Positions 9,860-14,407 of a DNA stretch of 14,758 nt are shown piece after piece. The position numbers were made by a program, and so were the translations under genes. Origin of the DNA: Nitrospirae bacterium CG2_30_53_67 (GTDB lineage Bacteria; CG2-30-53-67); NCBI GenBank assembly GCA_001873285.1, contig MNYV01000012.1, positions 1 through 14,758 on the forward strand, written 5' to 3'. Under the pieces are notes generated by a model. The model was not told the DNA's origin. It saw only the letters and a program-made list of their open reading frames with translations, and searched no databases. How positions within the stretch are numbered: the stretch's first letter is position 1; each line of letters opens with the position of its first letter.

Positions 9860-10677
9860 TCAGAAGGTCAGATTCTCAAGCGGGGTATACGGGAGGCCCA
9901 GGGATTTGGAGACCAGGGGATGGGTCAGATGCCCTTTGTGTGTGTTAACCCCCTTATACAATGCCTTTGACTTTTTCAGGGCCTTGGCGAGGCCGGCATC
10001 AGCGATCTCCGAAAGGTAGGGGAGGGTCACATTGGTCAGGGCGAATGTGGAGGTCTTGGCTACGGCGCTGGGGATATTGGTGACGGCGTAGTGGATGACA
10101 TTGTCCACTTCATAGACCGGGTCGGAGTGCGTGGTGGGCCGGGTGGTCTCGATGCAGCCCCCCTGGTCCACGGCCACATCCACCACCACGGAGCCCCCTT
10201 CCATGGAGCGGATCATCTCTCTCGTCACCACCTTGGGCGCTCTCGCGCCGGCGATGAGCACGGCGCCGATCAGGAGGTCGGCCCTGGCCACGGCGTTTGA
10301 TATATTTTTCTTGATTGCCGTCAGGGTGGTGATGTTTCCCTGAAAATAATCATCATGAGAAATTCGGTGAGGGAGGGGTTTGCAGCCAGGTGGAGGAAGG
10401 TGAAGAGGGTCTGTCCTTCCCTGAAGAGGTCGTATTCAGCAGGGAGGGGCTCCTTGACCTTGAGGATCAGTTCCGATTCGCTGAACAGGGTGCGAAGGTC
10501 GGTCAGGATCTTCCCCCCGGCCTCTTCAAATTCATGATCCGGGATCCCGCTTCCCACGCCGGCCCCCTCCTGGATCAGGACCTGATGGCCGGATTCGGTA
10601 AGGTCTTCCACCCCCGCGGGTGTAATGGATACGCGGCGCTCGCCGTCCTTGATCTCCCTTGGGACCCCGATGATCAT
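9860..10677 (-). pseudogene. ald: Alanine dehydrogenase, disrupted by internal deletion and frameshift
   Basis: Alanine dehydrogenase oxidises L-alanine to pyruvate and ammonia with NAD. The upstream fragment (10321-10677, 118 codons) starts MIIGVPREIKDGERRVSITP and keeps the substrate residues Arg15, Lys75 and His96 at their known numbers. It then reads out of frame and stops. The downstream fragment is open in another frame from about 10356 to 9860 and holds DLLIGAVLIAGARAPK, the DQGGC motif with the Asp270-equivalent, THSDPVYEV and LPYTPLENL at the C-terminus. By family numbering (about 370 residues), roughly residues 108-206 are missing, including the NAD-binding glycine motif. The join is near 10350-10358 and also shifts frame. 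The start overlaps the amidase stop as ATGA and has AGGAG upstream. An assembly error is the alternative to a true deletion. Confidence 0.88.
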
Positions 10678-11504
10678 CGGATCTCCTGTTCCTCCTTGAG
10701 GACCAGATTCCCATACAGATTCATCCGCCGGTCCTTAAAGAAGCCGCTCTGCGTCCTGGCCTCGGCGATTATGGAGAGGTCAATATCAACCAGCGAGATG
10801 CCTTCCTGAATGCCGATGGGATCGGCGAGCAGTTCGCCGTAGGGATTTACACAAAAACTCCCGCCGTAGAAATCAAGGCCATGGTCGTGTCCTGCCCGGT
10901 TGACCCGAAAAACAAAAAGGTTGTTGACGAAGGCGTTGGCGGAGATGACGTGGAGCCATCTCTCCTGCGAGGCATAGGCCGCCGCGGTCGGAGCGAAGAT
11001 GATTTCGGCCCCGCCGAGGGCCAGGGCCCTCGATCCTTCGGGGAAGAAATTATCCCAGCAGAGCTGAATGCCGATCTTCCCGCAGGCTGTGTCCATCACA
11101 AGGAACCCGGACTCGCCGGGTTGAAAATAATATTTTTCATTCCAGCCGGGGATAGAGGGGATATGGGCTTTTTGATAAACCCCGATGGCCGTCCCGTTCG
11201 CATCAAAGACCGCGGCCGAGCTGAAGGTTTTTTCCCCCTTCCTTTCAAAGAAGGGACAGATCAGCACGACCTTATGGTCACGCGCCGCCTCACGAAACGG
11301 GTTAAGAATTTCGTGATCAAGGGGAATGGCATGATTGAATGCCTCTGGGGTTTCCTCTTTCAGAAACCAGGGGAGGAAGAAGATCTGAGGAAAACAGATG
11401 ATCCTGGCCCCACTCTCGGCGGCATGGCCGATATAACGGACGGCCTTCCGGATGTTTCGATCAATATCATCGGAACAGAAAATCTGTATGCCGGCGATCT
11501 TGAT
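10674..11504 (-). CDS. Nitrilase-superfamily amidase with non-ATG start (possible pseudogene)
   Basis: About 276 residues of a carbon-nitrogen hydrolase, resembling N-carbamoylputrescine amidase-type enzymes. The reading frame begins ATC AAG ATC GCC GGC ATA CAG, where family members usually read M-K-I-A-G-I-Q, with AAGGAG 7 bases before the ATC. No ATG, GTG or TTG occurs in frame between the upstream stop and a GTG at 11267, which would lose the first 79 residues. Counting from ATC, Lys112 (YQKAHIP) and the nucleophile Cys149 (GIQLCWDNFFPEGSR) are present, but the expected catalytic Glu is Gln40 (CFPQIFFLPWF). The end FFKDRRMNLYGNL is family-typical. It overlaps ald by ATGA and is first in that operon. 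Either it uses a rare start, or ATG was lost, or the base is a sequence error. Confidence 0.75.
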   Translation of the reverse strand: MKIAGIQIFCSDDIDRNIRKAVRYIGHAAESGARIICFPQIFFLPWFLKEETPEAFNHAIPLDHEILNPFREAARDHKVVLICPFFERKGEKTFSSAAVFDANGTAIGVYQKAHIPSIPGWNEKYYFQPGESGFLVMDTACGKIGIQLCWDNFFPEGSRALALGGAEIIFAPTAAAYASQERWLHVISANAFVNNLFVFRVNRAGHDHGLDFYGGSFCVNPYGELLADPIGIQEGISLVDIDLSIIAEARTQSGFFKDRRMNLYGNLVLKEEQEIR

Positions 11505-11511
11505 GGCGGCT

Positions 11512-11517
11512 CTCCTT
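11512..11517 (-). promoter_or_regulatory. Shine-Dalgarno AAGGAG before the ATC start of the amidase
   Basis: AAGGAG on the minus strand lies 7 bases from the ATC codon at 11502-11504, which is ideal spacing. It marks 11504 as the ancestral translation start even though the codon is not a standard start. Confidence 0.65.
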
Positions 11518-11578: not shown

Positions 11579-11735
11579 ATTGTCCGGCTCGACCTGTCTG
11601 CCGTGACATCGGCACAGGCAGGCCGGACAATCCATGGTTCGACAAGCTCACCATGACAATTGTCACCCTGAGCCTGTCGAAGGGTGGATTCCCCGATCAA
11701 GCATGCCCTCCGACTTGATCGGAGGGTCGGGGAAT
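11579..11735. repeat. Cluster of three consecutive hairpins (dispersed palindromic repeat)
   Basis: The 278-base gap between secA and the amidase gene holds three imperfect palindromes in a row. First, ATTGTCCGGC (11579-11588) pairs with GCCGGACAAT (11622-11631). Second, TTCGACA and GCTCA (11638-11650) pair with TGAGC and TGTCGAA (11669-11681) around a GACAATTGTC palindrome. Third, ATTCCCCGA (11688-11696) pairs with TCGGGGAAT (11727-11735), with inner CCCTCCGA/TCGGAGGG. The second matches a TTCGACA...CCTGAGCCTGTCGAA sequence type often seen between genes in bacterial assemblies; the third recalls ATTCCC...GGGAAT repeats of the Neisseria dRS3 kind. They may protect or end the secA transcript. 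No gene is seen in the gap. Confidence 0.75.
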
Positions 11736-11782: not shown

Positions 11783-14407
11783 TCATTTCCCGCAGCATTT
11801 CTTGTATTTTTTCCCGCTCCCGCAGGTGCAGGGTTCGTTTCTGCCGATCTTCTTTCCCTTGACCACGGTCTGTACCTTGGCGGCCCCGCCGCCCTCGCCG
11901 CGGCTGTAATAGACCTCCTGTGAGTGTTTCGGCTTCTCCATCTCTACGGCTTCAGGGCGTTCGATCTTGAGGTGGAAAAGCAGGGTCAGGGCATTTTCAT
12001 TGATCCGGTCCAGGGTCTCCTGGAACATGTTGAACCCTTCTTTCTTGTACTCTAAGAGGGGGTCCCTCTGCCCGTAGCCTCGGAGGCCGATCCCTTCTTT
12101 GAGATGGTCCATGGCCAGAAGGTGGTCCTTCCACTGGGTATCGAGAGATTGGAGCAGGACCATCTGCTCGACCTGACGCATGAAGGACTCCCCGAGCTCA
12201 AGTTCCTTCTGATAATGCGTATTGGCGACATGGGTCTTGAGTTTTTCCGATAGATCTTCAGGCTCCATCCCCTGAATTTCATTTTCGTCAAAGGGGAGCT
12301 GAAGATGAAAGACCCTGTGATAAAAATCCTTCAGCCCGTCAACGTCCCATCGGCGGCCTTTTTTCTTATCTTCCGTGTAGGTCTGAATGGACCTCTGTAA
12401 AACTTCACCAATGGTTTCCTGGATGATATCCTTGACATATTCTCCCTCAATGATCTCTTTACGCAGGGCGTAGATCGACTCCCGCTGCTGGTTCATGACA
12501 TTATCGTATTCCAGGAGCTGCTTTCTGATGTTGAAGTTCTGGGATTCGACCTTCTTCTGGGCATTCTCGATGGCCTTGGTCACCATCCGGTTCTCGATGG
12601 GGACGTCCTCCTCGATGCCGAGACGGTTCATGATGGAGGAAATCCTCTCCGCGCCGAAGATCCGAAGGAGATCGTCTTCCAGGGAAAGGTAGAACCGGGA
12701 AGATCCCGGATCGCCCTGGCGGCCGCATCGGCCTCGGAGCTGGTTGTCGATTCTCCGGCTTTCGTGCCTTTCGGTGCCCAATATATGAAGCCCGCCCTCT
12801 TTGACGACCTTCTCGTGCTCTTCCCGGCACTGGACTCTGAAGTGTTCAAGGAGGGTCTCATATTTTTCGGTTCCCTCCTCGGCGGAGGCTGTGGCCAGGA
12901 ACTCAGGGTTGCCGCCGAGCACAATATCGGTGCCCCGGCCTGCCATATTGGTGGCGATGGTGACCGATCCGAACCGCCCGGCCTGGGCTACGATCTCGGC
13001 TTCTTTTTCGTGATGTTTTGCATTCAGCACATGGTGGGAGATGCTGGACTTTTTAAGGTAGGCGGAGAGCTTTTCGGAATTTTCGATGGAGATGGTGCCG
13101 ACCAGGACCGGCTGTCCGCGCCTCCGGCATTCCTCGATCTCGGTGACAACCGCCTTGAACTTTTCTTTTTCGGTCTTGTAGATCAAATCGTGAAAGTCGT
13201 TCCGGATCATGGGCTGATTGGTCGGGATGACGATGACCTCGAGGTTATAGATCTTTTGAAACTCCTCGGCCTCGGTGTCGGCGGTTCCGGTCATGCCCGC
13301 CAGTTTTTTGTACATCCGGAAATAATTCTGGAAGGTGATGCTGGCCAGGGTCTGGTTCTCCCGTTCGATCTTGACTCCTTCCTTGGCCTCCAGGGCCTGA
13401 TGAAGCCCGTCGCTGTATCTTCTTCCGGGCATGAGGCGCCCGGTGAACTCGTCCACAATGAGCACCTCATTGTCCTTGACCACGTAATCCGTGTCCCGTT
13501 TGAACAGGGTGTGGGCCTTGAGGGCCTGGTTCACATGGTGGACCAGTTCGATGTTGGATGCATCATAGAGGTTCTTCACACCGAGGTAGTTTTCTACCTT
13601 CTCGTTTCCTTCTTCGGTCAGGGCCGCGGTGCGGGCCTTCTCGTCCACGGTGTAGTCCGTGTCTTTTTCCAGCCTGGGGATGATTTTGTCGATCTTGTAG
13701 TACTTGTCCGTGGATTCTTCGGTCGGACCGGAGATAATGAGCGGCGTGCGGGCCTCGTCGATCAGGATGCTGTCCACCTCGTCTACGATCGCGTAGTTGA
13801 AATCACGCTGAACATAATCCTTCAGACGGAACTTCATGTTGTCCCGCAGATAGTCAAACCCGAATTCGTTGTTGGTTCCATAGGTGATGTCCGCATGGTA
13901 AGCGGTTTTTCTCTCTTCGTCCGACAGGCCATGCACAATACAGCCTACGGTCATCCCGAGGAAGGTATAGATCTTTCCCATCCACCGGCTGTCCCTTCCG
14001 GCCAGGTAATCGTTTACCGTGACCACGTGGACACCCTTGCCCTCGAGGGCGTTTAAGTAGACCGGAAGGGTTGCGACCAGGGTCTTTCCTTCCCCGGTCT
14101 TCATCTCGGCAATCCGTCCCTGGTGCAGGACGATCCCGCCGATGAGCTGCACATCGAAATGACGCATGGAGAGGGTCCGGACCGAAGCCTCTCGCACCAC
14201 GGCAAAGGCCTCGCACAGAAGATCGTCTATGGTCTCCCCTTTTTGCAGGCGGTCTTTAAATTCCAGGGTTTTTTTGGCGATCTCCGCATCGGACAAGGCT
14301 TTAATTCCAGGTTCCAGGGCGTTGATCCGGCCCACAAACGGTTTGATCTTCTTCAGCTCCCGTTCGTTCCGGGTGCCCATGATTTTTTTCAGGATATAGG
14401 CGATCAT
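11783..14407 (-). CDS. secA: Preprotein translocase ATPase SecA
   Basis: An intact 874-residue SecA, the motor that pushes unfolded precursor proteins through SecYEG at the inner membrane; E. coli SecA has 901. Seen: the N-terminus [20 protein letters not shown], Walker A MKTGEGKT with Lys108 as in E. coli, [16 protein letters not shown] (175-190), the DEVD Walker B (209-212), [28 protein letters not shown] and [15 protein letters not shown] of the second nucleotide-binding fold. The helical scaffold and wing follow. The C-terminus is the zinc-binding SEC-C motif [18 protein letters not shown] (Cys860, 862, 871, 872), the SecB/lipid contact site. The ribosome site before the ATG at 14407 is weak (GGAAATGATGCA). 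It stands alone, with repeat-rich gaps on both sides. Confidence 0.98.

Follow-up and report, generated by a model that had tools for sequence, protein, structure and literature searches.

The secA-amidase locus

The window, i.e. the whole 14,758-nucleotide stretch of DNA that was analysed (Nitrospirae bacterium CG2_30_53_67, contig MNYV01000012.1), carries on its minus strand a nitrilase-superfamily gene, hereafter the amidase gene, between secA and a remnant of ald. Its features were compared with those of a family set of six genomes (the window's own and five relatives, covering three genera of one small family), of a non-redundant clade of 96 proteins that share a WFP-type motif and are sister to AguB, and of 19 outgroup proteins. 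Catalytic residues are given with their equivalents in the Medicago CPA (MtCPA).

11783 to 14407, minus strand: secA, with Pfam SecA domains; precedes the amidase gene in every family genome (six of six) and in 26 of the 96 clade members
11512 to 11517, minus strand: Shine-Dalgarno (SD) sequence AAGGAG, 7 nt from the ATC; each of the six family genomes has AAGGAG or AGGGAG at a distance of 7-8 nt
11502 to 11504, minus strand: ATC, putative start codon; one of the six family genomes has ATT here, the other five ATC
10674 to 11504, minus strand: CN-hydrolase (nitrilase superfamily) gene, 276 codons plus stop, with a putative AUC start; basis PF00795, AlphaFold model and family orthologues
11385 to 11387, minus strand: Gln40, codon CAG, in place of the catalytic Glu (MtCPA Glu48)
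11169 to 11171, minus strand: Lys112 (MtCPA Lys121), kept in 95 of 96 clade members
11136 to 11138, minus strand: Glu123, the second conserved Glu (MtCPA Glu132), kept in 96 of 96 clade members
11058 to 11060, minus strand: Cys149, nucleophile position (MtCPA Cys158)
9860 to 10677, minus strand: alanine dehydrogenase (ald) remnant, residues 1-108 and 207-367 of a 371-residue relative, the halves out of frame

By homology, the first codon of the amidase frame is the ATC, and the stop lies at 10674-10676. An in-frame stop was found 25 codons upstream of the ATC, with no ATG, GTG or TTG between the two, and the first canonical start in the frame is a GTG at codon 80. A preliminary description of the sequence had reported an ATC behind a well-placed AAGGAG and 79 codons without any canonical start, and both observations held (11504-11502, spacer 7 nt). 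The first strand of the AlphaFold model, built with 63 sequences, comprises residues 2-7 (pLDDT 98), and a predicted strand from residue 2 fits a start at the ATC and not at codon 80. An annotation limited to ATG, GTG and TTG would call the protein 79 residues short and lose Gln40.

The putative ATC/ATT start is conserved in the family

Orthologues of the amidase were present in all six family genomes examined, the family proteins being 63-68% identical to the window protein. At the identical codon, five genomes read ATC and one ATT, always with an SD sequence 7-8 nt upstream. In G001, just five sense codons, TTA AGG AGG AAC ACC, separate the secA stop TGA from the ATC, and since none of them is a usable start, no other start is possible there. 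In G005, the stop TAA precedes CCG TCC GGA AGG AGG ACG AAA and then ATT, again with no canonical codon between. G003 reads ATG AAA ATC, where the ATG stands two codons before the ATC but only 1 nt after AAAGGAG. Taken together, the codon was kept in six of six genomes, the SD stood at a working distance in six of six and no canonical codon lay in reach, the ATG of G003 being too near the SD. This conservation is one origin that has been kept, not six independent origins.

Pairwise dN/dS, where computable, was 0.13-0.33 over codons 1-55, rough values with dS near saturation, and 0.04-0.19 over the remainder of the gene. Judged from these substitution patterns, codons 1-55 are under purifying selection, i.e. 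they evolve as coding sequence. Upstream of the ATC/ATT, the family alignment showed no codon periodicity; position -11, within the SD, was invariant, and the sequence beyond the SD was not conserved.

These data bear on the possibility that the true start lies elsewhere, at a far-upstream ATG or GTG, in a SecA-amidase readthrough fusion or at an internal codon, which we consider quite improbable. In G002 and G004, an in-frame ATG or GTG does stand 11 and 21 codons upstream of the ATC/ATT, without an SD, but no canonical start codon lies upstream in the window, G001 or G005, and nothing upstream is conserved beyond the SD. The secA stop is in frame with the ATC/ATT in four of the six genomes, as a readthrough fusion would have it; the spacers of the window (278 nt) and of G004 (47 nt), however, are not multiples of three, which excludes a simple fusion in these two genomes, and this candidate was discarded. 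An internal start at codon 80 would delete the first strand, the first helix and Gln40, all of which are conserved.

The reading frame is intact and the adjacent ald looks broken

The preliminary description had offered two explanations, either early decay or a rare ATC-initiated protein with altered chemistry. For decay, in which the start would have been lost and the active site would be degenerating, it can be said that the locus is not free of damage, the adjacent ald being both deleted and frameshifted. Against it, start, SD, Gln and open frame are common to six genomes of three genera, and dN/dS is well below 1 (about 0.13-0.33 for codons 1-55). Decay was therefore rejected as hardly credible, and by the same comparisons the amidase gene of the window is intact; the ATC/ATT start and Gln40 look like kept features. 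Of the second explanation, the ATC start gained support from the conserved codon and SD, while the altered chemistry is only plausible. That description had also named, as counter-evidence, homologues with a conserved Gln and a start elsewhere, and it had proposed aligning close homologues for recurrence: Gln was found in six of six genomes, and the putative start was not elsewhere but at ATC (five of six) or ATT (one of six).

Judged by its sequence, it is ald that looks truly broken in the window. Its ATG overlaps the amidase stop (ATGA), and 98 codons are missing (109-206 of the G002 protein), including the nucleotide-binding part. In G002, G004 and G005 ald is whole and shows the same ATGA overlap; it was not found in G001 and G003, and no second copy was found in the window's genome. 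The deletion could be an assembly fault. The broken ald had escaped the preliminary description, as had the repeated Glu-to-Gln change in the clade and the linkage to secA and lepB described below.

Non-canonical initiation in the genome and its relatives

We scanned 60 contigs of the window's genome (635 kb of 2.36 Mb; 476 closed coding-like ORFs) for ORFs in which an SD-supported non-canonical codon precedes the first canonical start by 20 codons or more and the codons of the intervening stretch are coding-like. The amidase was the only clear case among the 476 ORFs; the runner-up had weak coding scores and nearly all others had negative ones. A general relaxation of start codons in this genome was ruled out by this single case in 635 kb. 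Since the start and Gln40 both recur in six genomes and the gene is the only such ORF in the scan, their occurrence is more than chance.

A non-canonical infC start is the usual mark of IF3 discrimination, and self-regulation of infC through IF3 is known in model bacteria. In the window's family, infC has an SD and a non-canonical start, as the amidase does: ATA in G000, G001 and G003 and apparently CTG in G002 and G004 (loci L133-L137). In the sister family, infC starts with ATT. Judging by these codons, the lineage uses non-canonical initiation at the gene where one would expect it, infC. To our knowledge, a conserved AUC or AUU start is known in few bacterial genes besides infC, and our literature search for bacterial ATC starts returned nothing on point.

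The closest precedents are the IF3-repressed sigR of Streptomyces, with a GTC start in 32 of 34 species and a GTT start in the remaining two (PMC5472188), and cvfC1 (AUU), ccpN (AUA) and infC (AUA) of S. aureus (PMC13009471). In infC (AUU/AUA), sigR, ccpN and cvfC1, as in the amidase, a non-canonical codon behind a strong SD is kept across a genus or family with change at the third base only. The amidase differs from them in gene family and lineage; its control by IF3 would be by analogy, and an autoregulatory loop comparable to that of infC is not expected for it.

As for the origin of the codon, many deltaproteobacterial homologues read TTG-ATC-AAA, in which the ATC can be read as an old second codon; this suggests that the ATC of the window lineage is a former second codon that took over once the TTG was lost. 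One deltaproteobacterial homologue (L037, 2992-3003) reads GTG ATG TAG ATT AAG, with a stop directly before the ATT, which may reflect an ATT start that arose there independently, in parallel, or else an error in the sequence.

The nitrilase fold lacks the catalytic Glu

The window protein matched PF00795 with 168 bits (cut-off 23.2), and its AlphaFold model (mean pLDDT 93.9) shows the alpha-beta-beta-alpha nitrilase fold, with Z of 33-39 to many solved members of the superfamily. By predicted fold and by sequence it is a nitrilase-superfamily homologue, and its status as a hydrolase is putative. The closest solved fold was that of MtCPA/AguB (TIGR03381; PDB 5h8i/5h8j), with Z 39.4 and 1.8 A over 266 residues at 36% identity. 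The protein nevertheless scored 244.3 bits against the TIGR03381 cut-off of 410.25 and fell outside the AguB-type (YFC motif) proteins in the tree, in a separate clade (SH-aLRT 99) whose members often stand beside secA or lepB.

The triad of MtCPA consists of Glu48, Lys121 and Cys158, with Glu132 assisting by a share in the activation of Cys158 (PMC4812014). In the phmmer alignment to the MtCPA structure, whose chain numbering is apparently offset by 3 tag residues, Gln40 aligned with Glu48, Lys112 with Lys121, Glu123 with Glu132 and Cys149 with Cys158. Lysine, second Glu and Cys are thus shared with MtCPA, whereas Gln40, which lies within ICFPQIFFLPWF, replaces the catalytic Glu and leaves the Glu-Lys-Cys triad incomplete, as the preliminary description had recognised from the sequence (Gln at the expected Glu position, with Lys112 and Cys149 kept). 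All six family genomes encode Gln40. Codon 95 (11220-11222, minus strand) is a second conserved change, being Ser in six of six family members and Asn in all 65 clade members with both Glu and Cys. The Gln members showed no obvious compensating acidic residue; ancestry confounds the differences that they have at positions 54 and 131.

According to the titles of PDB entries 4izt and 4izu, fluoroacetamide and acrylamide are still bound as covalent adducts by the E41Q form of the Nesterenkonia sp. AN1 amidase. It shares with the window protein the fold and, by residue offset, the substitution; E41Q is a laboratory mutant, whereas Gln40 is natural and conserved. Nothing on point was found in the literature searched for a natural Glu-to-Gln change in the nitrilase superfamily.

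Single catalytic residues were lost repeatedly in the clade

At the Glu site, 17 of the 96 clade proteins have Gln, one Pro and one Ala, the last two being L063 and L077. A further 12 have Ser, Gly or Ala in place of the Cys and keep the Glu. In total, 31 of 96 lost one catalytic residue and none lost both Glu and Cys, a mutual exclusion that is not significant (0 double losses in 96, Fisher p = 0.12). All 19 outgroup proteins keep both residues. The clade tree required nine changes for the Glu position and eight for the Cys position, and its well-supported branches alone force at least five changes for the Gln label and at least three for Cys loss; in a first tree Gln needed nine changes, six of them forced. 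Reconstructed in this way, Glu-to-Gln arose several times in the clade. Every sampled member of two families (L158, L159 and L164; L157 and L161) has Ser at the nucleophile position, and four other proteins (L153, L155, L162 and L163) have Gly, with Glu and Lys kept in each case.

The Gln form might still be an active hydrolase in which Glu123 or water replaces the Glu at position 40, perhaps slowly or on another substrate. All 17 Gln members keep Lys112, Glu123 and Cys149, the gene is under purifying selection, Glu and Gln are mixed within close groups (e.g. L087/L102/L090), and the role assigned to Glu132 in activating Cys158 of MtCPA (PMC4812014) would suit such a replacement. On the other hand, none of the 19 outgroup proteins has lost the Glu, the E41Q Nesterenkonia structures show, by their titles, trapped adducts, and some clade members carry Gly for Cys and cannot be nucleophilic at all. 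We regard this as a serious possibility, yet an unlikely one. A post-translational deamidation of Gln40 to Glu, perhaps carried out by the protein's own active site, would restore the triad and is far less probable: an amidase homologue whose site also holds Cys and Lys, in a clade where Gln arose several times with the rest of the site kept, might achieve this, but the Pro and Ala of L063 and L077 cannot be converted and no precedent was found in the literature searched.

The clade is linked to protein export genes

Across several phyla, secA precedes the gene in 26 of the 96 members of the clade; lepB (signal peptidase I) lies nearby in 24, and argS or lepA in 17. Linkage to one of these was found at 67 of 96 clade loci, a lower bound with flank lengths that differ between loci, versus 0 of 19 outgroup loci. 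By guilt by association, a functional link of the clade protein to protein export is the natural guess; the literature searched for a secA- or lepB-linked nitrilase held nothing on point. Loss of a catalytic residue was seen in 16 of 26 members beside secA versus 0 of 24 beside lepB, groups that follow the tree, so that the counts are not independent. For members L038, L060, L084, L040, L102 and L090, the neighbour is either lepB or the group of argS, a SPOR-domain gene and lepA, an arrangement that parallels the linkage to secA in other members.

A proposed weakly initiated, hydrolysis-impaired protein

From sequence and predicted structure we propose, with a probability of roughly 60% for the reading as a whole, that the window encodes an AUC-translated, export-linked protein with Gln40 that binds its ligand and hydrolyses it poorly. 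The likeliest view of the start, from its conservation and from the analogy with infC and sigR, is that AUC/AUU is real, weak and probably IF3-sensitive. The codon (AUU in one relative) would be placed by the strong SD directly downstream of secA and read by initiator tRNA to give fMet-Lys-Ile..., at an efficiency kept low by IF3 discrimination; the protein would then be made in small amounts, with more of it at reduced initiation fidelity or under a shortage of IF3. In the predicted nitrilase fold, Lys, second Glu and Cys would be in place and the proton-shuttling Glu replaced by Gln. Following the adduct-forming E41Q Nesterenkonia amidase, we infer that an amide-like ligand is bound and perhaps trapped on Cys149, with hydrolysis poor or nil. 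The product is probably a nitrilase homologue that binds a ligand, is impaired in hydrolysis and has a link to protein export; it may act as a binding or sensing protein or as a very slow enzyme. Repeated loss of exactly one catalytic residue, in a clade whose genes neighbour secA and lepB, points to an uncharacterised export-linked component.

More speculatively, and with doubtful prospects, an export-tied nitrilase family may have repeatedly become a non-hydrolytic ligand-binding factor by single catalytic swaps (Glu to Gln, Cys to Ser, Gly or Ala) akin to the trapping mutants of crystallographers, with an IF3-gated AUC/AUU start behind secA setting the dose in the window lineage.

The secA-amidase spacer of the window also holds a 39-nt imperfect palindrome (11624-11695). 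Since the spacers of the relatives measure only 15-47 nt, an element seems to have been inserted in that of the window.
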